From Prorocentrum cordatum (lineage: Eukaryota > Sar > Dinophyceae > Prorocentrales > Prorocentraceae): a stretch of DNA of 64,000 nt. Position numbers and translations under genes: made by a program. Numbering within the stretch: the first letter of the stretch is position 1; each line of letters starts with the position of its first letter. The notes beneath the pieces were generated by a model, which saw only the letters and a list, made by a program, of their open reading frames with translations, searched no databases and had not been told where the DNA came from. Positions 1 to 63,473 of the stretch are shown in pieces. The DNA is taken from positions 1 through 64,000 of the forward strand of contig CAUYUJ010004540.1 in the NCBI GenBank assembly GCA_963575745.1, given 5' to 3'.

Positions 1-19
1 GTAGCCGTTTTGGGTCAAG
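1..19 (+). other. relict dinoflagellate spliced leader (DinoSL) at the 5' end of LINE-1
   Basis: Bases 1-19 read GTAGCCGTTTTGGGTCAAG. The conserved DinoSL ends in GTAGCCATTTTGGCTCAAG, so 17 of 19 positions agree. The first bases of the leader would lie left of the window. The leader is normally added to mRNA by trans-splicing, so its presence in DNA directly before a LINE 5' region indicates that a trans-spliced transcript was reverse transcribed and inserted. Confidence 0.8.
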
Positions 20-137
20 GGGCCTGCTCCTGAACTTCCCAACCTCTCTCAAGGGCGGCCACAGAGGGCCAGGTTGGGCGCGCAGCCCCCTCCAGCACGA
101 CCCCAGCCGAGGGGTCCCCACTGGCTGTCCCTGTGCG

Positions 138-275
138 ATGGCTGGACAGTGGCGCTGGAACTCCAACACGTACAAGTGGGAGAAGAAGCAGCAGAAGCAG
201 CAGAATCGGGAGTATGTCGTCTGCGATGCGTGTGGCCGCTGGAAGTGGGCAGACAGACTCAAGAAGGACCCGTTG
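138..275 (+). pseudogene. LINE-1 N-terminal Cys-finger region
   Basis: An ATG at 138 opens a Trp/Lys-rich start followed by VVCDACGRWKWADRLKKDPL and a further Cys. This spacing (C-x2-C, then W-x-W) resembles the RanBP2-like finger that begins many dinoflagellate LINE proteins, and it matches in style the finger of LINE-2 at 59395. The start lies 119 bases after the relict leader, a plausible 5' UTR. The frame is lost within about 50 codons, where coding resumes in the frame opening at 74. A nucleic-acid binding role is inferred from family position only. Confidence 0.6.
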
Positions 276-325
276 TGTGTGTGTGTGGCCATATGCTTGG
301 CCCAGATCTTGCTGCTGCTCCTGAT

Positions 326-900
326 ATATCACAACAGAAGTTCACTCAGGAGAACTTCATCAAGATGCTCAACCGGGGCGACCTCGGAGTGCCAATGGTC
401 AACCGCATCAAGGAGACCGCCACGGTGCATTCCCCCGGGGGTCCGACACCCAAGTCCCTCAGCGATGCCTTTCAGCGACGACAGCAAGCAGTTGAACGGG
501 CACCCAGACACAAAGATGCAGCAGATGAACGCGTTCTACATCTCCAAGAGCAGCTTGAGGATGCGATCCAACCTCAGTCGACGGCAGCCTTGGCCCTGGC
601 GCAGGCCAACGAGGCCGCAGCAGCGGCGGGCCGCGCTCACGCAGCCAGCGTGGGCAACCAGGGCCCAGCAGCCGCAGATGATGACATGTCCATGGCGGGC
701 AGCGACGCATCCAACATCAGCGACTTTGCCGACCTCGGCGAGGACGACTACGAGATCGTGCGCAAGGTTGCCCAGGCGAAGCCGAAGCTCCAACGGCTCC
801 TCGCCAGGGTGGAGGGGACCGTGCCAAGAAGCAGGCCCGCCGCGCGGCGGCGGCCGCCGCCGCCAAGCCCGCCGCCGCCGCGCCCGCCGCTGGGGCAGCA
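326..900 (+). pseudogene. LINE-1 ORF1-like linker (helical, acidic, then Pro/Arg-rich)
   Basis: In the frame opening at 74, coding-like sequence starts near 326 with FTQENFIKMLNRGDLGVPMV. It passes through Ala/Gln-rich helical stretches and a DDDMSMAGSDASNISDF acidic patch, then becomes low-complexity Pro/Arg near 840. This is the usual linker between the finger and the endonuclease in these elements. No catalytic motif is present. It is a decayed structural or RNA-binding segment. Confidence 0.5.
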
Positions 901-1249
901 GGCCAGCCAGGGGCCGCCAGCGCGGCCGCGGCCTTCTCCCTCGCGGCCAACGGCGGCATGCAGTGGCAGCCCATCGCCCCGGAGGTGGCTGCCCAGGCGC
1001 GGGCCGCCGCGGCCCAGGCGGAGAGCGCCCGCAGCGGCGTCGCCGCCCGGGCAGGTCCAGGGCGAGGGTCACCTCACAAGATATCTTGCCGACAGCACTG
1101 CGTGGGGCGAGAAGGCCGACAGATTTTGTTTGCCCAGAAGCTTCCATATGACTTTCTGGCTTTGACTGGGGTTCATAAGTCAGCAGGGGACTCGAGGCCA
1201 CTCAGAAAAAAAAAGTGTCGGAAGCAATCCTGGTCAACGCACGTATGTC

Positions 1250-2205
1250 CAGCCTCGCCTACCACGAAAGGGGGTGCACATGGAGGCGTCCCCATCGGGG
1301 CTTACCTCTGGGACCCCATAGGGTACAAGGCCGCCAACAGGGATATCATGTGGGAGATTATAACCTTTGTGCGTGTCATGAGGACGCCCTATATTCTAGG
1401 AGGTGGTTTCAACATGGGCCCGTCCTCCGTAGAGGGGGCCAGCATCTTATCGCACATGAATGACACCATCGTCGTGCCAGACATTCCCTACACCAACGCG
1501 GTGACCAAAACCATGGTAGATTTCTTCATTGTAGATGAGCGTTTGGCTACGAGCATCAAGGTCAAGGGGCACTTGGACGGCCCCTGGAGCCCACACTACG
1601 GACTCATCTTGGACATGCCGTGTGAGGTCTTCACCAAGCAGATATGGTCCATTGAGAGACATGCACCAATACCTCGGGCCCTGGGACCTGCTCGTCCGTG
1701 GGCCGAGTACTTCGGGAAGGCGCTTCATCAGGTCCAGGGAACATATCCGAAGTGTTTTGGTCACCACGATGATCAGCTTACCCAAACATTCGCAGTTCTC
1801 TGTAGGGCAGTGGAGCTCCAGCAGAGGGACATAGAAGTACCTGACATCGAGTGCCAAGCAGGGCTAGTGCCGCGCTTCGCTTGGAAGGCGCCCCTGCCGC
1901 CCGCGCCCAAGGAGGGGCGTGCCAAGTCGACCGCCACCCAGTGGGCTACCCTAGGCATCCGCGCGCAGGAGCGGGACCACGCCAAGGCAGATCACCAGCA
2001 CTTTGAAAGGTTGCAGAAGTTTGTCACGAACTTTGCAAGCACGATCCCGTGCCCAGATATGACCCCAGAGGATTCTTGGGTTCTTGAATATTATCTTGGG
2101 GGATACTCCGACAAGGACACACAGGCCAATGGGGTTGGAGATCATAGATGGGTTCCAGCACCAGTTCTTCCTTTCGGAGCTCCAGGAGTGCAGGGAAATA
2201 TTTAA
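1250..2205 (+). pseudogene. LINE-1 APE-like endonuclease, C-terminal half, and EN-RT linker
   Basis: In the frame opening at 958 the exonuclease-endonuclease-phosphatase signatures are visible but eroded. YILGGGFNMGP stands where the family has GGDFN-x-x-P, MVDFFIVDERLA corresponds to the substrate-contacting strand, and SPHYGLIL stands where the catalytic S-D-H is expected. Asp in GDFN and Asp in SDH are both replaced, so target cleavage is probably lost. The segment continues as an EN-RT linker (RPWAEYFGKALHQVQGTYPK) until the stop at 2203-2205, overlapping the next frame from 2084. Confidence 0.75.
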
Positions 2206-3430
2206 AGAGTTGGTCTTGAACTCTCTCAAGAGAGGAGGAGGGGCCGCCCACGCCATCAACAAGGCCAACAATGGAGCCCAACCTGAGCCTCTCGAGGACT
2301 TCCAAGGGCCCGATGGCGAGATCATCACCGGCCCCTACCTCGTCATGAACAGAAACTTCGAATATTGGATGAGCCAGTGGGACCCCCAGACCAAACACCA
2401 CCCAGCCCCGTTTGAGCCTCAATGGGTCCGAAAGGTTCGAGGTCAGGCCATGGAAGAATGGGGCTTAGACTACCACGACTGGGAGGCCAGCGACGTCTTT
2501 AACGTTGTCGCGCTGCACAAGCCCTCGGCCGCGCCAGGAGGTGACGGATGGTCAGTCCGAGACTTCCTTCTGTTGCAGGACGAGGGCCGCAAAGGTTTCA
2601 CGGATCTGATTAACCAACTATGCCGTCGGCAACAGCTTCCCCCCCAGGTCCTCCTCAACCTCATCATTCTCCAGCCGAAAAACGCGGAGTGTGACAGACC
2701 CTTGACATTGACGGCGGGGCTCTATCGGGTCGTATCCAAGTTGTTCAGGAGCGAGCTATCCTCTTGGGACCAGGACTCTGCGAGTTTCTGGGATCAGGCG
2801 CTCAAGGGGAACGACGCTCTCAGGGCTGCGGTGTTGTCAGAAATTGCAGCTGCAATCGTAGCGGCTGGGGGCACTTCCATGATGGAGGCCCTCCTCGACA
2901 TCGAGAAGTTTTTCTGATTCAGTTGAACTCGAGTGGATGGTCCATTCTGCCCTACGTTTGAACTACCCTGCCCTCCACTTGCGCTTGCACGCATGGTTCA
3001 TCGGTGCACGAGGGTGCTCACGTCGACCATTGGATGCTCAGACTTTGCAGTACCAGATAAGTCGATGCTCCAAGGCTGCGGGCAAAGCTGCTCGCTGGCG
3101 CGTGCGTTGTTGTATCATGTGTTGGACAAGTTCCACAGAGAGTTCATGCCACTCAGCTTTCGCACATGGGTTGATGACCTTCGAGTGCGCAATGCGGGCA
3201 TCATCAGAGCATATGGTACACCTCTCCCCTGCTGCCGTAGTCTCCCTGAGCGGGGACCTCGCGCGGCAAGGATGCAAGCTGTCTTCCAAGAGTTGCTTGA
3301 TGGCGTCCAGTTCCTCTCTGGCAGCAGGTGTGGCTCAGGCGCTGGAGGCCCAAGGAGTGCCCATCACAGTTCAACGACAAGGGAGAGATCTTGGGGTCGA
3401 CGCTACATTAGGACGACAACGTAGATTAAG
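2084..3430 (+). pseudogene. LINE-1 reverse transcriptase core (fingers and palm)
   Basis: Fingers: GGDGWSVRDFLLL, then LIILQPKNAECDRPLTL, the PK-x-RP segment of LINE RTs. Motif A appears as LLDIEKFF before an in-frame stop at 2915; one extra T there shifts the frame, and the next frame continues with DSVELEWM. The Q-G segment GCGQSCSLARALLYHV precedes motif C, which reads FRTWVDDLRV at about 3158-3187 with both catalytic Asp residues kept (3173-3178). So the catalytic centre survives while the reading frame does not. Confidence 0.85.
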
Positions 3431-5330
3431 AGTTCGCAAAGCCAGACAAACGGGTGGATGTTCCCGACTTATCAAAATCCGGAAGCTCTCGAAGAATATC
3501 AAAGGTGCCCGAAGTCTCGTTAGCACTGAGGCTAAACCTCAATTGGTCTGGGGCTTCCAAGGGCACGGAATAGCCCCCACTGCCCTCAAGCTCCTCAGGG
3601 GGCGACTGGCTACTGCTATGGGGCTCATCAGTAAATCGGCTTGCACTACTGACGCCTACGCCCTCTCCCCGAAGGGCAGCTTGGTTACCGATCCAGGATA
3701 TTATGTTCCCTTGGGATGTCTGGAGCTCTGGTTTTCCATATTGAACCAGGAGGAGCACCTACACATTGGGATGAGAAAAACATGGCCCAGGACCCTTGCC
3801 CGACTCCAAGGACCAGGTAGATGGAACAAGGTATGCAGCCTCATGTCGTCCGTCCTCGCCTACCTTTTGGACTTCCGCTGGGAGGTCACAGATCCATAGA
3901 GGTGGATCAGCCCGTTCGGACAGCAGTATCTCGTCAAGCCAGGTGTCGAGGATGATCAGTCCTCAGTGTTCACCGCCTTCTCTGCCTGCGTCACCCATAA
4001 GTACTGGGGGCAGGCGGCCGAGTTCTATTGTGGAGGAGGGGGGGAAGGAGGAGTTGACATCCATCAGTTTCGACACCATGTGGGAGGATGGAGGAAGAAA
4101 TCCAAACATCTAGTTGCTGCTACGTATTCTGTCGCCAATGGGTGCATCCGGCATGGAGCTAGGATATTCAAAGTTGGAATGAAGGGCTCCCCCGAGTGCT
4201 GGCGATGCGGAGCCCCAGTGGAGGACGCTTTTCATGCATATTGGAATTGCCCAGCCCTCATATCTCTTGCATTAGAGCATGACGAGACTCGGGGCTCCCA
4301 ACACCTCCTCCCGAGGGCCAGGGCTGAACGAAATACATTTCCCATCAAGTGGTTTCGAAGGCTACAGCCGCAGGACCAGGCCGTAGGCTTCCTCAGTTCC
4401 AGACCCGTCAACTCTCAGGTATACGGTACGGGATGCCTCTACACGGGGCGTTTCACTTTCACCGAGACGCGGCTTGTCGGCACGGACGGCTCGGGAGGAC
4501 AACATTCCGCCGATCCTCGCCTTCGAAGAGTAGGATGGGGCCTCGTCTTGATGGGCAGGGACCAATGGGCTCAAGGGACTTTATATGGACTTACCCCAGG
4601 AGCCCAGACAATTAATCGAGGGGGGTTCACTGCAGCTATTTACGCGTTGGCCCTAGATGGGCCCATCGTCGTCGTCAGCGATAGCGACTACATCATGAAA
4701 GGGGTCCGAAGGGGTGAGAACTGGAAACATAGAACAAATTCTGATGTGTGGTCCCTCTTGTGGCAGGTGTACCATCAAAGGACCAGCCACACCGTCTTTT
4801 TAAGAAGACCAAGGCCCATGCCACGCCGTCAGACATCGCCGACGGGACCGTGCGGGCAGACTTCTACATTGCCAATGCCGCCACCGACGCCGTTGCGCGC
4901 AGGGCGGCAGAGTTTTTTGCATTTACGGAGGAGGAGGTCAGGGAGGTCAAGGCCAAGGATGAGGAGATGCAGCTGATCAGATCCCGTCTTGCATGCGTCC
5001 AACATCTTAATTGGAAATATGGTCCGAACCTGAAGCAGCAGAAAATACCCAAAAGTACACGAACACGTCGTCTCCGAGAGTCTGAAATGAGCCCGCAAAG
5101 CATTGTGAGGGATCCAGTAGACGAGTCAGTTAGATGCACGCGTTGCGCTGCTTTCTCTGGCAAGCCGTCTCCAGGGTGGGTTTCACAAGTTTGCCTGCCC
5201 AGGAAGTATATGTTTGATGTCCACCCCTCCCACCACCCCAATATGTGCATGGTCAAAAGGGGTGATGTTTTGTGCCAAGTGCGGAGGGTGGGCCGCCTCG
5301 AAGGTTTCAAAGCTAGCCAGTCCTTGTGAA
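3431..5330 (+). pseudogene. LINE-1 post-RT region: thumb, Cys/His finger, RNase H and terminal Cys finger
   Basis: DLGVDATLGRQRRLRVRKAR near 3390-3450 is the conserved post-palm motif of these LINEs. A CWRCGAPVEDAFHAYWNC finger lies at 4197-4254. RNase H follows: GTDGSGG (Asp 4485-4487), a degenerate second motif RGGFTAAIYALA lacking the usual Glu, then VVVSDSDYIMKG. A one-base shift at a run of five T near 4797-4801 moves the C-terminal part (KTKAHATPSDIADG, NAATDAVA) to another frame. A final finger, FCAKCGGW plus KLASPC, lies at 5268-5327 after one more frame change. Confidence 0.8.
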
Positions 5331-5545
5331 AAGCCGACAAGCACGGGGATCAAAGCGTCTCGTAGGTTGTTGCAGGGACTGAAACTCAAAAGGTTAATTG
5401 AATGGCCGACGGGACAACTTGCTCATCTAAGAACGCCGGTTGCCACCCGATGCGGTCTCCCACGAGATAAGATTGTCTCGTGAGGCTTTCAGGAAGGGCC
5501 CTGGCGTGCAGGGACCCACCTTCTAGTGCAGGTCAATAGGTCAAT

Positions 5546-5795
5546 AGGAGGAGGAGGAGGAGGAGGAGGAGGAGGAGGAGGAGGAGGGAGGAGGAGGAGG
5601 AGGAGGGACGAGGAGGAGGAGGAGGGGGAGGAGGAGAGGAGGAGGAGGAGGAGGAGGAGGAGGAGGAGGAGAGAGGAGGGGCGGAGGAGGAGGGGAGGAG
5701 GAGGAGGAGGAGGAGGAGGAGAGGAGGAGGAGGACGAGGAGGAGGAGGAGGAGGAGGAGGAGGAGGAGGCGGAGGAGAGAGGAGGAGGAGGAGGA
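5546..5795. repeat. (GGA)n microsatellite
   Basis: About 250 bases of nearly pure GGA/GAG repeats follow the 3' end of LINE-1. The Gly/Glu/Arg and Leu/Pro/Ser open frames here are artefacts of the repeat. Confidence 0.95.
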
Positions 5796-5975
5796 CGGGT
5801 CGCCTAAGCCCCTCGGAGAAACCCTCCAGCCAGCCCCTGGCCTCCGTGTCCAGAGGTCCCCTCTATGTGCCCACGGAGGCCAGGCGCCGTCCGAGTCATG
5901 CCTGGCCCACCTGGGCCGCTTCACGCGGCCAGCACCAGGTCGACACACCTCTGCACAGGGGATGGACCTCAAGCT

Positions 5976-48182: not shown

Positions 48183-48411
48183 AGGCCTCCTACATGGGGT
48201 CGGAGTAGATGGGGTCGGAGGATCTCGCCGCATCGCCGACACATCGGCGATGCATCGGCGATGCATCGGCCATGCACTGGCGACGCCGTCGATACATCGG
48301 CGACATCGGCGTGGAGAAATTTGGGGCCCCACATCGAGCCGCATCGCTGACGCATCGCCGATGCGGCGCGAGCCTTCGGCCCCATCTGCTCCGACCACAT
48401 CTAGGAGACCT
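48183..48411. mobile_element. foldback element, family E, copy 3
   Basis: AGGCCTCCTACATGGGGTCG and CCGACCACATCTAGGAGACC are the ends. It abuts a family D element. Confidence 0.9.
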
Positions 48412-49262: not shown

Positions 49263-52030
49263 ACCAGTGCAAACCCAAAGCGCATCAACGATGTTGTATT
49301 CAATCCTACCTCCAGGTTCTCTCTTCATAGGTCCCTATAAGACATGCTTGTCGTTGTGGGGAATGCCAGATTGGAAGACAACCGTCTGAGACTCCTCAAA
49401 CGTGTCAGGAAACCATTCTAGGGATTTCAGCGCAACAACAAAAAGCGGCTGGTTCCTGACAGTGCGGAGTCGCGCCAAAACGCCATTCGCGTCTAAACGT
49501 GAATGTTGCGTCCTGACATTCCCACGCGTGCCAGAACGCACAAATGTAGGCGGCGCCAGGGCGAGAGCCAAATCTCGAAAACCACCCGCCCTCCATCCAT
49601 GACGAAGTTGCAATCTTCAAGCCTCAAAATCACAAATGGCGAGGGCGTATCACTCAAAACGCCAAGCCCGTCCTACGGCACGTCTGGGGATGCGACAGGG
49701 AGGATTTATGTATATGGGGAACGGATGGAGGAGGAGGAGGAGGAGGAGGAGGAGGAGGAGGAGGAGGAGAGGAACAGAAGAGGAGACGGAGGAGGGAGCA
49801 TGGGAGAAGGGAAACGGGAGAAAAAAAAGGAGACGGAGGGGGAGGAGGCGGAGAAGGAGGAGTAGGAGAGTAGGATGAGAAGGAGGACGGATAATGAAAA
49901 GAGGAGGAGGAAGCCACGCAGGAAAAGGAGGACCAGTGTTCACCCAAAGCCCGTCAACGATGTTGCAATAAGCCCTCCCTCCATAGTCTCTCTTCATGGG
50001 CCCCTGCAGTAATTAATTGTCATTACGGGCAATACCCCGTTGGTAGACAAACGTCTGAGAATCTTCAACCGTGCCAGGAAACCCTTCTTGGGAATTCAAC
50101 GCCTCAAATCAACATGACCCTTGCGTCCTGACACTGACACTCCTGAATCGTGCAAAAATGCCATGTCTGGACTTTGCCACCGCGAGTCATCGTGACCGTT
50201 GCGTCCTGACAAACGTAGACCGTACCAGAGCACCGTCCCTGGGGCTTTAACCAGACGTACCCTTTAACATGCTGCACACGTTTAGTGCGAGCGCGCGCGG
50301 CGTTGAAGCGAGAACCACATCTTGAAAACCATCCACCCTCCATCCTTGAAAAAGCGATTCGTTTCAAGCTCCAGGTTTATGAATGGTGAGAAAGTCTCAG
50401 ACACCCGACATGGAATTGCGACAGGGAGGATGTTATTTATATGGAAAACGGATGGAAGAGAAGGAGGAGGGGGAGGGGAAGGACGAGGAGGGATAGTAGG
50501 AGGAGGGATACTGGGAAAAACGGAGGAGACCGAGGAGGAGAAGAGAGGAGGAGGAGGACCAGCGTAAAACCAATAACCATCAACGATGTCGGGGAAACCC
50601 GCCCTTCAAGTTCCCTCTTCACGAACCCATGCAACGGTTCATTTCCACTAAGGGAACTGCGCCGTCGGACAACGACCGCTCGCAAACCCTGAAACATGGC
50701 AAAATATTGCTACCGGGAGTCAAACACCACGGACAAACCTGACTGTTGCGTGTTGGCGATCCTGAATCGTGCCAAACGCCTTTTTCTTGGGACTTCGACA
50801 CCGCAAATCAACCGAACTGCTGCACCATCATCATCCGGAGTCTTTCCACAACAAAATTACTGGTGCTTTGATCATGGGAATCCGTGGATCTCTTGCAAAT
50901 GTTTAAGACGAATGTGCGCGGCGCTGAAGCGGGAGCTACATATTGAAAAAACGAACCGCCCTCAATCCGTAAAGGTCTTGCACATGTTTAAAACGAATGT
51001 GCGCGGCGCTATGGCGAGAACAACATTTTGAGAACGGGTTCCCCGCAATCCGTGAAACTCTTACACCTGTTTTATAATAAAAAGGAATGTGCGCGGCGCT
51101 AAGGCGAGAGCCACATTTTGAAAACGTCCCGCCCTCAATCCGTGAAGCTCTTGCTAACTTTGAACAACGAATATGCGCGGCTCTAAGGCGAGAGCCACAT
51201 TTCGAAAACGGCCCGCCCTGACGCTGTTAAATTCTTGCAAATGATTACGAATGTGCGCGGCGTCAAAGCGAGAGCCCCATTTTGAAAACGGCCCGCCCTC
51301 AATGTGCGAAACCGTTGCCAATGTTGAACCTTCGGGGTCATAAATGGTGAGGACGTCTCAAGCGAAACGCCCGGTCCGCCATGAAAACGTGTTTCGGGCC
51401 GTTTGAAGACCCTGAAGCATGCCAAAGCATTGTTCTCGGGATTCCAACGCCGCGGATCAACATGACTGTTGCGTCTCAGACGATCCTGAGCCGTGCCAGA
51501 ACGTTATGCGCCGTGGACGATCCTGCGCCGTGCCAGAACGCCATTCCTGGGACTTCAACACCGCGAATCAACGTAACTGTTGCGCCCCATAACCCTGAGC
51601 GCTTCCAAAACATCACTTCTGGTACGCTGATAATGGGAGCCCGTGGAACTCTTGCAGAGTTTAAAGCACGGATGTGCGCGGCGCTAAGGCGAGGGCCACA
51701 TGTTGAAGACGACCCGCCTTCAATCCGTAAAACTACTGCAGTGTTTAACGAAAACACGCAGCGATAGTCACATGTTGAAAACGGCCCGCCCTGAATCCGT
51801 GAAACTCAGCCGCATTTTGAAAACGGCCCGCCCTCAATCCGTGAAGCCTCTGCAAAAAACTTAAAACGAATGTGCGCGGTTTCAAAGCGAGAGCCACATT
51901 TTGAAAACGGCCCGCATCTGTGAAGCTGTTGTCAATTTTCAAATTTCAGGGTCATAAGTGTGAGGATGTCTCAGGCGAAACGCCCGGCCCGCCTTAAAAC
52001 TTTGCCTCGGGGTGTGGCAAGGAGAAATTA
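49262..52030. repeat. higher-order repeat, unit about 0.65 kb, with embedded GGA tract and 80-90 bp subrepeats
   Basis: GACCAGTG..AACCCAAAGC and GTCAACGATGTTG occur near 49262, 49931 and 50560; GGGGAACGGATGGAGGAGG-type starts occur near 49716, 50440 and (diverged) 52025. From 50890 to 51920 the phrase GTGCGCGGCGCTAAGGCGAG, with ACATTTTGAAAACG, repeats every 80-90 bases. No gene is recognised. Confidence 0.75.
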
Positions 52031-54479: not shown

Positions 54480-55285
54480 GATGGGGGGGGCACGGCGGGG
54501 GCCCGCGCGACACGCCCGCTCCGCCGCCGCCGCCGCGCGGCACCCCGTGTGCTGTCCGACGGGGCCGCCCGAGACACGGGAGCGGAGCCTGAAGCTGCGG
54601 GGCGGCGCGGTAGGCAGACATCCGCACGCGGCGGAGGCGCCTGGAGAGGCGCACCCAGGGCGCAGGAGGAAAGGGTAACGCGGGCCCGCTCCCTCGCTCG
54701 GGGCTCCCCGTCGTGCAAGGGGGCGGCCGAGGTCTCAGGCGCTGCGATTTGCTCACACCAGGCGTTGCTCCGCCCATCTTCGGGCCCTAAAGCGATGACA
54801 CATCGATGGGAACTGCCACAAGAAAGTGGGGGTCAAGGGCTCCGGCCGTGACTTGTCACGTCGTTCTAAAACATTGTTCGCGAGGTCGGGTCTCGGGGGA
54901 GGGGGGAGATAGGCAAGCAGGGCGCGCTCGCGCCACATCTGACAAACTACCCTTCCCACCTATCCTTCCCGCTGGCGCTGTTTTTTTCCTGTCTGTGTCA
55001 CGACGGACCAGGAACGCCCAAAAGGCAGGAGAGCCCAGAATCGAATCGACAAGTCGGATCGGCGATCGGGATGAATCGAATCGGCGGAAATCGGCTGCCG
55101 AGTCGGGAGAAGTTGAATTGGCGGCGATCGGCAGGCTAGTAGGCCGCAATTGAGAAATCGGGACCCACATCGGAATCCGTGAATCCGTCGAATCGAATCG
55201 GAATCGGAAGCCGTCGAAATCGAATCGAATCGAATCGGGAAAATGGAAACGAGCCCCAAAGAGGACACCATCGTGGCATGAACGC
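54480..55285. other. no gene recognised; GAATC repeat
   Basis: GC-rich unique DNA to about 54860, then GAATCGAATCGG-type repeats at 55031-55250. Confidence 0.5.
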
Positions 55286-55735
55286 CCAGGAGAGGGAGGA
55301 GGAGAGGGAGGAGGAGGGGGAGGAGGAGGAGGAGGAGGAGGAGGAGGAGGAGGAGGAGGAGGAGGAGGAGGAGGACGGGGGGCGCCCAGGAGAGGGGCGC
55401 CGCGCGGGCGCACGCGCGCGGCGACGTCGGCACGGGGAGCGTTGCGCGACAGGGAGGGCAGGGGCGCCTGGGAGGAGCGACCGGCTCCGCGGAGGAGAAG
55501 GGGCTAGGAGGAGGAGGACGAGGAGGAGGAAGAGGAGGAGGAGGAGGAGAAGGAGGAGGAGGAGGAGGCGGAGGAGGAGGAGGAGGGGGAGGAGGAGGAG
55601 ATGGAGGACGAGGAGGCGGAGGAGGAGGAGGAAGAGGAGGAGGAGGAGGAGGACGAGGAGGACGAGGAGGAGGAGGAGGAGGAAGAGGAGGAGGAGGAGG
55701 AGAAAGAGGAGGACGATGAGGAGGAGGAGGGCCGC
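55286..55735. repeat. (GGA)n microsatellites
   Basis: GGA repeats at 55290-55375 and 55505-55735, separated by GC-rich DNA. Confidence 0.95.
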
Positions 55736-55876
55736 GAGCCTGGGGGCGCGAGACGAGCCACGCGGCCCCCGGTCGCCCGCGCGCCGCGCGCGCGCGGCCC
55801 CAGGCAGACCAGCCTCGGACGGACCAGCAACTGGCTGCCAGGGGCGTGAGCGCGCGCGAGCGCCCGCGCGGGCGCG

Positions 55877-55962
55877 GGGGCCCTGCGCCTCCAGCGGCGA
55901 GCTCAGGACCCCCGACCGCGGGGGCCCTGCGCCTCCAGCGGCGGGACCAGGGCCCCCGACCG
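55877..55962. repeat. tandem duplication of about 43 bases
   Basis: GGGGGCCCTGCGCCTCCAGC occurs at 55877 and again at 55919, each followed by GGCG and a CCCCGACCG end. Confidence 0.85.
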
Positions 55963-57082
55963 TGAGGTCGAACGCGACCTGCTCGCCGTCGCCGTCGGGT
56001 CTCCACCGCCGCCCACGCGGTGGATCTTCGGGCCGTCCAAGCAAGTAGTAGGACTGCTGCAACCTCTGCGGCTCGAAAAAGTTGCTCCTGAGGAAGAGGT
56101 CCAAGCGCGCGGCCTCGATGTGCTGGACGACCTCCGCCATATCCACACCATCCAGAACGCCATGTTGAAGACCTTCTCAGCCTCCGACACCTCCGCCCCC
56201 ACCGTCTCGGAATCGCCCGACTCCGAGTGCGACCCCTCCTTGTCGAAGTTCTCCACGCCGACGCAGACCGACGCAGAGCATCTGCGCCCTCCTCTGCACG
56301 AACGGCTACGCCGCCCGCCCGAGCCGAGCGCCAGGGAGGTCGAGAGAGGACTCGGCCCGCAGCTGGACTCCGCCGCCACGCAATTGTCGAACACCTGCTT
56401 CCGCAGCGGCGCCACCTTCGCCGACCCATCGTCGTGGCAGCGCTCTGCGACGACCTCCGGCTCCTCCTCCACCTTCTCCGTCAACGCGTGCTTCTGGGAG
56501 TCAGCCTTGCACCCGTCCGCCTGCACGCGGTCACCCCCGCCCAGCTGCTCCAGCAGGACGTCGACCGTGCCGCGGCTGGCGGGCTCGAAAGGCGCGGCCT
56601 CGCCCCGCAGTGGGAAAGCCTGCGCCGGCCTCGAGGTCGCTGGCCTTGACGCCGACCGCCCGCGGCAGGGCCCCGCCAGCCGCCCCTGGCGGCGGCGCGT
56701 GCCTCGCATGGCTGCCCAGCGACAGCGCCTCCTCCGCCTGCTTCATCACCGCGCCTGGGCAGCCCAGGAGACGGGCGGCCGCCAGCCCTTCGTCGAAGGA
56801 AGGGAACTGACAGCCGAGCATGCCTCCGATGCGCCAGTGCGCGCCCAGCGCCACGCGGAGCGCCTGCGCCCGCCGCGCCAGGGCTCCGGCGCGAGAGGAG
56901 CCCATCTCCTCGCGGCGCTCCCTGCGGAGGCGCCTGGCGAGGGACCGCGTGCTCGCGGCCGCGCAAGCCTGGCCGCCGCCGCTGCCGCCGCCCGACATGG
57001 CCACTTGCGCGCCCGAGCGCGCCCGGGCGCGCAGCGCGAGGGCCTCCCGAAAGCCAGCTCGCTTGAGCCAAAATGGCTACGG
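55960..57082 (-). pseudogene. processed retrocopy of an unknown gene, headed by a perfect spliced leader
   Basis: Minus-strand order: spliced leader (57082-57062), 63 bases of 5' UTR, ATG at 56998, then an Arg/Ala-rich helical N-terminus (SLARRLRRERREEMGSSRAG), GMLGCQFPSFDEGLAAARLL and VMKQAEEALSLG. Frame changes near 56620 (continuing PASRGTVDVLLEQLGGGDRV, KVEEEPEVVAERCHDDGSAK) and near 56150 (DMAEVVQHIEAARLDLFLRS) have no plausible introns between them, as expected of a spliced retrocopy that decayed. No family is recognised. It is unclear whether any product is made. Confidence 0.65.
57062..57082 (-). other. relict dinoflagellate spliced leader, perfect copy
   Basis: Reverse complement of 57062-57082 ends GTAGCCATTTTGGCTCAAG and is preceded by CC; all 21 fixed bases of DinoSL agree, and the base before fits the variable first position. 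It lies directly upstream of a start codon on the same strand, so it marks the 5' end of a reverse-transcribed trans-spliced mRNA. Confidence 0.95.
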
Positions 57083-57178
57083 AGGAGGAGGAGGAGGAGG
57101 AAAAAGGGAGGAGGAGGAGGAGGAGGAGAAGGAGGAGGAGGAGGAGGAGGAGGAGGGGCGAGGAGGAGGAGGAATAAT
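57083..57178. repeat. (GGA)n microsatellite abutting the spliced leader
   Basis: GGA repeats start at the base next to the leader, so the insertion point may be a microsatellite. Confidence 0.9.
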
Positions 57179-57215
57179 GGCGAGGAACAGCAGCAGAAAC
57201 ATGACCAGGAGTGGG

Positions 57216-57438
57216 AGGAGCGGATGCATCAGCGATGCATCGGCGATGCGGCTCGAAGTGGAGCCCGACTTTCTCCACGGCGCCGTCGTCGATGCATCGC
57301 AAACGTCGCCGATACGTCGCCGATGCATCGGCGATGTATCGGCCATGCATCGGCGATGTATCGCCGATGTGTCGGCGATGCATCGGCGATGCGACGCGAT
57401 CCTTCGACCCCATCTACTCGCACCCCATCTGGGAGGCC
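57216..57438. mobile_element. foldback element, family E, copy 4 (left end eroded)
   Basis: ATCGGCGATGC palindromes and a right end CGACCCCATCTACTCGCACC with CCATCTGGGAGGCC. The expected left partner is missing. Confidence 0.8.
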
Positions 57439-57439
57439 C

Positions 57440-57958
57440 AGAGAAGAAAACCCGCGCTTGTGCGAGAGTTCCATGCTGAACGACCAGAGCAAAGCGCCGA
57501 TCCGAAATTGAGGCCGACGTTGCAGCGCAGCGGGAGTACCGAAGCACTGGAAAAATCAAAATCCAATGTCGAAAGCAGCAAACATCTAGCATAGTTTCCG
57601 AACTCCTGTGTAGGAACAAAAATGAACGGACAAGGCGCAATGCCGACGGGACGTCGTCGGAAGAGAGACGAGAGTACTGCCCATATTAGGCAAATTCAAT
57701 GGGGGGAAACGGCGGGAGGCTGGAGGGGGGGCAGGGGGGAAAGGAAGGGAGGGGAGGCAAGGGAGTGGAGGCGGGAAGATGAGAGGATATTGAGTGAGGA
57801 CGGACGAGGACGGACTCGAGAGGCGGAGGGACTGGGGAGGGATGCGAGCGAGAGGAGGCGAAGATGATCGGGGACGCACTGGCCCAGGTCAATGCAAACC
57901 CGGGTCAGTCATGCCAAGATCCTGCAAGATCCTGCAGGATCCTGCGCGCTAGCCTTGG
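57440..57958. other. no gene recognised
   Basis: G/A-rich stretch at 57700-57860. GATCCTGCA repeats at 57918-57945. Confidence 0.5.
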
Positions 57959-59280: not shown

Positions 59281-59394
59281 CTTCCTCCTCCAAACCATTT
59301 CGGCTCCAGCTGGCGATTGGAGCCTGTCGCCTTTTTCTTCGAAATTGGGAGCAGCACAGTATTCGAAGTGGCACTGCTCTCCCGAGCCAGAGAG

Positions 59395-61985: not shown

Positions 61986-63473
61986 CCAAACACGTGGCAG
62001 CGGCAGCTCAGACTCAACAAGGCGTACCAGGAGGTAGTCAGCATGGACCTCGCGCCTTGGACAGCCGCGGAGGAGGGGACGGCGCGGGCTCGGCCTGGGG
62101 ACCCCTCTGCAGACGACTGGCAGACCATGCAATGGGTGGCCACCAACATCGGCGACGCCAACGCGACGCTGCAGGACGGCGCGCCGTACCTGCACAACTG
62201 GGCGCTCGCGGCGGGCGACCTTGCTGAGCAGGAGCGCAAAGCTGCCCGTGCCGGGGCGACAAAGGAGTGGCGGCAGTGGGCCTACGCACACAGCACAGGC
62301 GGCCCTCGACGCCGTGGGCGCCGCCGGCGCCTCCCCCGGCGACGCCGGCAGCGCCACGCTGTGGCGACCCCCAGCTGGCGGCGGACAAGGTCATGGAAAG
62401 CTGGGGGGTGGATGTGTGGCGCATGCCGGCAGGGCAGCATGCCCCGTGGCAGGAGCGCCCGCCGCCAGAAGAGCCGAAGCTGGCACCGCTGGTCCCCGCG
62501 GAGGTCCACCAGCACTGCATGGGCCTCAAGGAGCAGGCGGGCCTGGGCGTGGGGCAGTGGCACCCGCGGCTCTGAGCCACAGGAGGCGCCGAGGGCATCG
62601 AGCGCATCTTCAGCGTGTTCGACGCGGTGGAGGACGGGGAGCCCTGGCCATCAAGCCAGTCGGACATCCTCTTCTACCACACGCCGAAGGCGGAGGGTGG
62701 GGGTATGCGATGCCTTGGCATACTGCCCGAGGTGGTCAGGCGATGGGAGAAGTGCAGGCGCCCCATCATCGCGAAGTGGGAGGCCTGCCACAGGAGAGAC
62801 TACGACTGGTCGAGAGCTGGGCGTAGCAGCGAACGCAGCGCCCGGATGCAGCAGCTGTTCCGCGAGGCCGCCGTGGTCGACAATGAGAGCCGTGTGATCA
62901 CCCTGCTCGACCTCGTCACGTGCTTCGAGTACGTTGGCCACTGGAAGGTTTGGGAGCCGGGGCTACACTGGGGATTCCCCAAGCGCCTGCTGCGCGTCGT
63001 CCTCCGCATATATGCGATGACCAGGCGTGTGGTACTGGAAGGCGTTTCCACCAGAGTCACGCAGTGCTGGCAGGGCCTCGTTGCGGGGTGGGTCTCGCCC
63101 CCGCCTCGCTCGAGTGGGTGCTCGTGAAGGAGCTGGATACCATCCAATGGACAACCGCCTCGCTGAGATGTGCCTGTTCTTCGGCGACCTGTCGATAGCG
63201 CACATGAGTGAGCGGACCTGGGTGGCAGCGGGACATGCGAGGATGGTTCGCCTCGTTATCGACCGCCTGGAGAACGAACTCGAGATGCCAGCATCCCTGG
63301 GCGAGAAGGGCAAGACAGCGCTGCTGGCCTCATCCACGGCGCTGTCCAAGGATCTGGAACCCATGACCCGGAAGATCGGGATCAAGACTGTGAGCCAAGC
63401 CAAGCATCTCGATGTCACAGTCTATGCAGGCCGTCGCCGTCGCGTGTCCGCCGTGCAAAAAAGAATCTCGAAA
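61986..63473 (+). pseudogene. LINE-2 linker and reverse transcriptase, catalytically mutated
   Basis: Linker: QRQLRLNKAYQEVVSMDLAP and HQHCMGLKEQAGLGVGQWHP. RT: EGGGMRCLGILPEVVRRWEK, RRDYDWSRAGRSSERSARMQ, motif A TLLDLVTCFEYV (near 62905), GFPKRLLRVVLRIYAMTRRV, QGLVAGW, then after a frameshift LFFGDLSIAHMSERTW, where the family has Y-V-D-D. The first catalytic Asp is replaced by Gly. KIGIKTVSQAKHLDVTVYAG follows, the post-palm motif also seen in LINE-1. Confidence 0.85.

Follow-up and report, generated by a model that had tools for sequence, protein, structure and literature searches.

The question raised by this locus is how a complete dinoflagellate spliced leader (DinoSL), the 22-base tag joined to the mRNAs of the cell by trans-splicing, came to lie in the genomic DNA of the bloom-forming Prorocentrum cordatum, a short distance before a start codon on the same strand. 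The window, by which we mean the whole 64-kb stretch of DNA that was analysed, had been described in a first-pass annotation as holding one recent processed copy of an intron-bearing parent gene, headed by all 21 fixed bases of the leader. The features that bear on this description all lie on the minus strand.

57083..57173, minus strand: (TCC)n tract directly upstream of the leader, where sibling loci differ; read as target-site DNA.
57062..57082, minus strand: complete DinoSL, an exact match (22 of 22 with T57083).
56999..57061, minus strand: 63-nt 5' UTR common to close family members, from the comparison of copies.
55905..56998, minus strand: remains of a reading frame, broken, with an approximate end; related to the proteins P0001 and P0002, no Pfam family.
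55873..55962, minus strand: tandem repeat of 44 bp, two copies, near the 3' end of the element (repeat scan).
55730..57082, minus strand: whole retroposon copy of 1353 bp, from the leader to the family 3' end, delimited by family alignment, 3'-end comparison and genome search.
55506..55729, minus strand: (TCC)n tract directly downstream, adjoining the element end.

The 21 fixed DinoSL bases, CCGTAGCCATTTTGGCTCAAG, are matched without a mismatch at 57062-57082 (minus strand), and this is the sole place in the 64-kb window that fits them with three mismatches or fewer; 100 dinucleotide shuffles of the window gave no match. A T at 57083 precedes the 21-mer, with which all 22 positions of the consensus DCCGUAGCCAUUUUGGCUCAAG, as printed in the relevant part of PMC6050394, are fitted. 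By chance, such a leader is expected 2.3e-8 times per window and 1.5e-3 times in 4.15 Gb, the size stated for the published P. cordatum assembly in the excerpt used of PMC10666404. Between the leader and the ATG at 56998 there are 63 nt, which places the leader itself 64-85 nt from that codon. The ATG is the homologous start codon, since the P0002 protein starts at the equivalent position. The first-pass annotation was thus right that the full leader is present in genomic DNA and that an ATG follows 63 bases further on the same strand. The bases right after the leader are CGAGC, and therefore there is no GT or GC donor of the kind found after the leader in spliced-leader RNA genes (PMC6616646, in part). 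On the opposite strand, a frame of 553 aa is open at 55850-57511 (plus) and runs through the leader; it is taken as a by-product of the high G+C content.

In a protein search, the first frame of the element gave a single relative, the unnamed partial P. cordatum protein P0001, which as a query led to P0002, also an annotated P. cordatum protein. P0002 matches contig C20519 at 98-99%, and family matches lie on contigs C9966 and C20519. The genome searched was the window's own assembly (4.13 Gb), in which P0002 gave at least 152 matches at E ≤ 1e-5. Eighteen places were examined, made up of 30 protein-search loci among the matches listed together with L015. At 15 of them a leader with 0-3 mismatches stands before the same or a related 5' UTR and start. 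The other three showed none: on C9966 and C1333 the match begins downstream of the start codon (C1333 was left out of the leader scan), whereas on C16448 the leader is missing although the match begins near the start codon. Pfam scans of the frames, P0001 and P0002 revealed no family, with E < 1 for two chance-like hits only, and a protein search with the 3' frame of the element found nothing. Scans of the window for Rfam families and tRNAs were negative (0 matches), and there is no reverse transcriptase inside the window element.

When the element itself was used as a DNA query, at least 50 genome matches were obtained (40 of 192 candidates scored). The family is about 1.36 kb long, with eight other near-full-length copies at 86-89% identity among the matches listed. 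Seven of the eight end within 7 bases of the query's last base; the eighth, on C17486, ends where the assembly reads N. The copies end in GCGGCC-ATCC and then mostly in TCC, with no poly(A)-type tail. Their upstream flanks differ and homology starts at the leader, except that the copies on C11416 and C17486 have a common flank and may be one insertion. One leader is present in each aligned copy, as would be the case with splicing at the final AG of the leader or with a source gene that has none. Six of the matches that are without the 5' part were also read; all six keep the family 3' end, and no leader was seen in their upstream 270-510 bases, where the best fit has 8-9 mismatches. Three of the six (L078-L080) have common flanks and were counted as one event. 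Truncation thus occurred independently at four points, near positions 344, 826, 1139 and 1163 of the element. A leader on the copies that reach the 5' end and none on the truncated ones is what is expected of copying from the 3' end of an RNA.

A target-site duplication was sought as a further mark of this process. At the C20519 copy, inspection by eye found the two ends bordered by a 16-bp direct repeat in which one position mismatches. This is the one clear case; in TCC tracts no duplication can be read, and this applies to the window copy, with its TCC repeats at both ends. Common 5' and 3' ends, differing flanks, leaderless truncated relatives and one direct repeat together give good support to an origin of the window copy from a trans-spliced, reverse-transcribed RNA, as had been claimed. 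The annotation had also proposed a search for remnant poly(A), which gave nothing: there is no A-run of six or more on the copy's strand from 56100 to 54988, and the only one between 56100 and 54400 is an A7 at 54981-54987, beyond the element.

The age of the copy was read from its siblings. From the ATG at 56998, 155 aa are open. An alignment with six siblings puts the window copy at 63 substitutions from their majority sequence over 1337 sites (4.7%). It also has seven indel events, of which six are not a multiple of three, about five of these six falling inside the reading frame. A frame "broken twice" is thus too low a count. At 4.7% divergence of the body, an unchanged 22-mer has P = 0.35; roughly one leader in three should still be intact. 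It is then not needed to read the undecayed leader as the sign of a recent event, and the apparent tension between a recent copy and a broken frame is gone. It was proposed by Song et al., as told in an excerpt of PMC6050394, that conservation is better, at any age, for leaders located 50-100 nt ahead of the start; for the window leader, at 64-85 nt, this idea is neither needed nor excluded. In the six siblings, 12, 55, 128, 159 and 336 aa (the last on C18452) are open from the family ATG, which the sixth has lost. Minority differences number 86, 117 and 97 at codon positions 1, 2 and 3, a spread that indicates no constraint.

Introns at the frame changes had been named as a finding that would speak against the earlier description; the alignment has small indels there instead. 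No intron-sized gap is present in the family copies aligned. The only gaps in the P0002 gene model are of 40 and 74 bp, and the first of these falls in a stretch that P0001 has as protein. An intron-bearing parent was not seen among the close copies found in the window's own genome.

Genome-wide, there are 14,218 exact leaders and 48,069 at three mismatches or fewer, compared with 0 and 121 for the reversed pattern; on average this is 0.22 and 0.75 leaders per 64-kb window. With 14,218 exact copies, a complete leader is not unusual in the P. cordatum genome. It was found that 1,466 of them directly follow TCCTCCTCCTCCT, about 42-fold more than the roughly 35 predicted from the frequency of this 13-mer in the window. 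A sample of 30 loci, the first exact-leader places listed and thus a non-random set from contigs C1-C3, was read by its surroundings. Fifteen follow a pyrimidine tract, seven a purine tract and eight neither, against backgrounds in the same loci of 2.5% (P = 1e-16) and 4.1% (P = 2e-4), respectively. In four, a second 15-nt piece of the leader stands directly after the first, a form known from transcripts (PMC12014239, in part), and in five, GT or GC follows the leader, about four being expected by chance. In the window family, 12 of the 15 leader-bearing places follow TCC- or CCCT-rich tracts. Of 13 places read at the 3' flank, eight are TCC-rich and one is partly CCCT-rich; one has the direct repeat and three are unreadable. 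The presence of TCC on either side suggests that copies were inserted into the tract.

About eight of the 30 loci carry, after the leader, zinc-ribbon or coiled-coil ORFs that look LINE ORF1-like by eye, and nine others (L008, L010, L012, L014, L018, L020, L026, L031 and L032) are alike at the protein level after the leader and form one repeat group. Two LINE ORF1-like loci, L064 and L065, were extended by 5 kb and no Pfam reverse transcriptase was detected in them, which counts against calling leader-headed loci LINEs in general.

Viral contigs were searched with a 17-base piece of the leader. L001, the IMG/VR contig IMGVR_UViG_3300045993_001077, is virus-like and AT-rich (22% G+C), and holds at 1936-2766 (minus) an island of about 50% G+C with an exact DinoSL first and an A-run last. 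The ORF behind this leader has 254 aa, with its ATG 45 bases further on; another exact DinoSL is found at 2893-2913, 147 bp upstream. The island resembles a dinoflagellate mRNA that was copied into the DNA of another genome. In the two other matches of the search, L002 and L003, the rest of the leader is missing, and both were set aside as probably due to chance.

A second element, at the other end of the window, also begins with a leader.

1..5540, plus strand: LINE-like element with leader, ORF from 138 with Cys motifs (by eye), zf-RVT and RNase_H; ends at a (GGA)n tract.
1..19, plus strand: decayed leader heading this element, 17 of 19 bases, its first bases lying outside the window.
4089..4256, plus strand: zf-RVT match, below the Pfam cut-off.
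4482..4772, plus strand: RNase_H match, above the Pfam cut-off.
5545..5797, plus strand: (GGA)n tract at the 3' end of the element; two other copies also end in (GGA)n.

As a control for the leader at 1-19, 30 simulated windows contained no leader match with up to three mismatches. No Pfam reverse transcriptase (RVT) was found in the element at 1-5540, the motifs being seen by eye only. Its first 420 bases have at least 40 genome matches, itself included (40 of 394 candidates scored). Nine other copies were fetched; in eight, a perfect 19-base leader piece comes directly after GGA-rich DNA, which makes the leader the 5' end of this family. The exception is L075, which has no leader; in L069 the bases that follow the leader differ, and the flank seems to be common to L072 and L073. 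Homology among the nine extends over at least 1.7 kb. The far end, some 5.7 kb on, was read in two copies; each enters (GGA)n there, so that GGA lies at both ends of these two. This is thus a multicopy family with common ends, as compared in nine copies for the 5' part and in two for the far end. A tblastn search of the LINE-like ORFs against L004-L065 and the window (1e-3) returned the queries themselves only, and tblastx between the elements at the two ends of the window (1e-3) gave no match.

The remaining features of the window lie apart from these two elements.

59295..59309, plus strand: weak leader-like 15-mer (13 of 15) after a TCC-rich stretch and before an ORF, 0.3 such 15-mers being expected per window.

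This 15-mer may be due to chance. Downstream of it, a weak RVT_1 match below the cut-off was noted at 62576-63124 (plus), which is perhaps part of a second LINE-like element starting near 59.3 kb. Tandem arrays of an 11-bp unit of the GCATCGGCGAT type occur at 48230-48311 and 57306-57392, and one of an 84-bp unit at 50908-51303.

Taken together, the locus is read as a decayed full-length copy of a multicopy retroposon family, made when a LINE-type reverse transcriptase copied a trans-spliced RNA into (TCC)n; we put the probability of this at about 0.83. The RNA of the family would be trans-spliced to DinoSL and then copied, from its 3' end, into a (TCC)n microsatellite by the LINE-type enzyme. 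Copying that is complete to the 5' end would give a DNA copy starting with the leader, and copying halted early would give one without it. The proposal draws on the leader-exact 5' ends, the common 3' end, the leaderless truncated copies, the one direct repeat, the tract flanks and the leader-headed LINE-like family in the same window. The LINE as agent, its identity and target-primed reverse transcription are what we infer from these; the copies would presumably still be transcribed and gain a fresh leader in each cycle. The best reading of the wider pattern is that LINEs retropose trans-spliced RNAs, probably including their own, into TCC/GGA microsatellites. Several observations stand against this explanation: the window element has no reverse transcriptase; no Pfam reverse transcriptase was detected in the LINE-like element; there is no poly(A) remnant; and three of the 18 places are without a leader, among them C16448 with its match near the start codon. 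Moreover, TCC lies upstream of the window family and GGA upstream of the LINE-like family, and because of this opposite repeat orientation the latter is not obviously the helper of the former. A broader claim, that most DinoSL sequences in P. cordatum DNA are the 5' ends of retrotransposons (trans-spliced LINEs and the non-autonomous RNAs they mobilise) in (TCC)n or (GGA)n, is tentative and in our judgement falls only slightly short of an even chance.

The closest competitor differs from this reading in the nature of the sequence copied. The family may be an ordinary host gene that was retroposed many times by the same insertion mechanism and is not selfish, which is a variant of the preferred explanation and does not exclude it. 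P0001 and P0002 are annotated proteins, distant relatives are numerous (at least 152 matches) and often have long open frames, C18452 is open for 336 aa from the family ATG, and DinoSL-tagged retrogenes are well known. However, the five other copies checked are open for 159 aa at most or have lost the ATG, the codon-position differences indicate no constraint, and the close copies include no intron-bearing parent. We regard a host gene as a real possibility, though one we lean against. The original description, one recent processed copy of an intron-containing parent, has the perfect leader 63 bases before the ATG in its favour; a multicopy family with contiguous close copies, 4.7% divergence, seven indels and no intron-sized gap make it very improbable.

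The tracts allow another interpretation, in which TCC before the leader reflects survival of, or selection for, a polypyrimidine tract at a splice acceptor and not a target preference. The tract and the leader's internal AG would form such an acceptor, a pyrimidine tract does precede half of the exact leaders sampled, and the second 15-nt piece in four of the 30 is what such splicing makes (PMC12014239, in part). Yet the purine tracts before seven of the 30 and the GGA before the LINE-like family cannot be polypyrimidine tracts, and TCC is found at the 3' end as well, as is GGA at the 3' end of LINE-like copies, which renders this interpretation unlikely. The least probable alternative, and to us barely credible, is that 57062-57082 belongs to a spliced-leader RNA gene or pseudogene, or that the leader was moved by DNA transposition or duplication. 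The exact 22-mer is found in such RNA genes too, and they presumably account for part of the exact leaders in the genome. Here, however, CGAGC takes the place of GT or GC and is followed by the family 5' UTR and frame, and the five donors after 30 exact leaders are near the chance number, while the truncated leaderless copies and the direct repeat argue for copying from RNA and not for movement of DNA.

If a retroposon family in microsatellites is indeed what the window copy belongs to, the leader tag marks mobile elements too, which is a warning for retrogene counts. Two leader-headed families located in TCC/GGA microsatellites, one LINE-like and one non-coding-bound, would offer a candidate machinery and a testable target rule; in the open-licence literature, no description was found of LINE families headed by the leader, nor of TCC/GGA as a target. 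Should most DinoSL sequences prove to be retrotransposon ends, DinoSL relicts would be greatly overcounted as host retrogenes, and each cycle of a mobile element would have its 5' end rebuilt by host splicing. Under such leader renewal, transcripts are predicted to consist of the leader and CGAGCTGG, or of the leader, CCATTTTGGCTCAAG and CGAGCTGG, without genomic upstream sequence.

Retrogenes with a leader tag are an established class in dinoflagellates (PMC6050394; PMC12014239, both in part). According to the relevant passages of PMC6050394, they are recognised by the leader tag and said to be 22-25% of genes, most are without a known parent, and the enzyme that retroposes the mRNAs is unknown. 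In Amphidinium, a leader-like genomic sequence before a start codon has been described (PMC2488372, in part). The window copy resembles these retrogenes in that a genomic leader shortly before the start codon is the mark of retroposition, and its position at 64-85 nt is within the 50-100 nt named in the excerpt of PMC6050394. It differs from them, as they are presented in those excerpts, in that it is one of a family whose members have the 3' end in common and are in part truncated and leaderless, that it lies inside a microsatellite and that its frame is dead. Insertion into simple repeats is a likeness to the microsatellite-inserting non-LTR retrotransposons (LINEs) of PMC4640811; here, unlike in the restriction-like-endonuclease elements treated in the part of that paper used, the 5' end is the host spliced leader. 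The endogenous viral elements of dinoRNAV (PMC10235124, in part) are similar in that relict leaders were taken as a sign of retroposition and LINEs were proposed as the machinery; in that account the LINEs are neighbours of the virus genes, whereas in P. cordatum the LINE-like family is itself headed by the leader. Transposon transcripts of Hydra also carry spliced leaders (PMC12220107, in part), which is a likeness to the trans-spliced transposon RNAs proposed here; in Hydra this was shown in RNA, whereas in P. cordatum the leader is fixed in the DNA copies.
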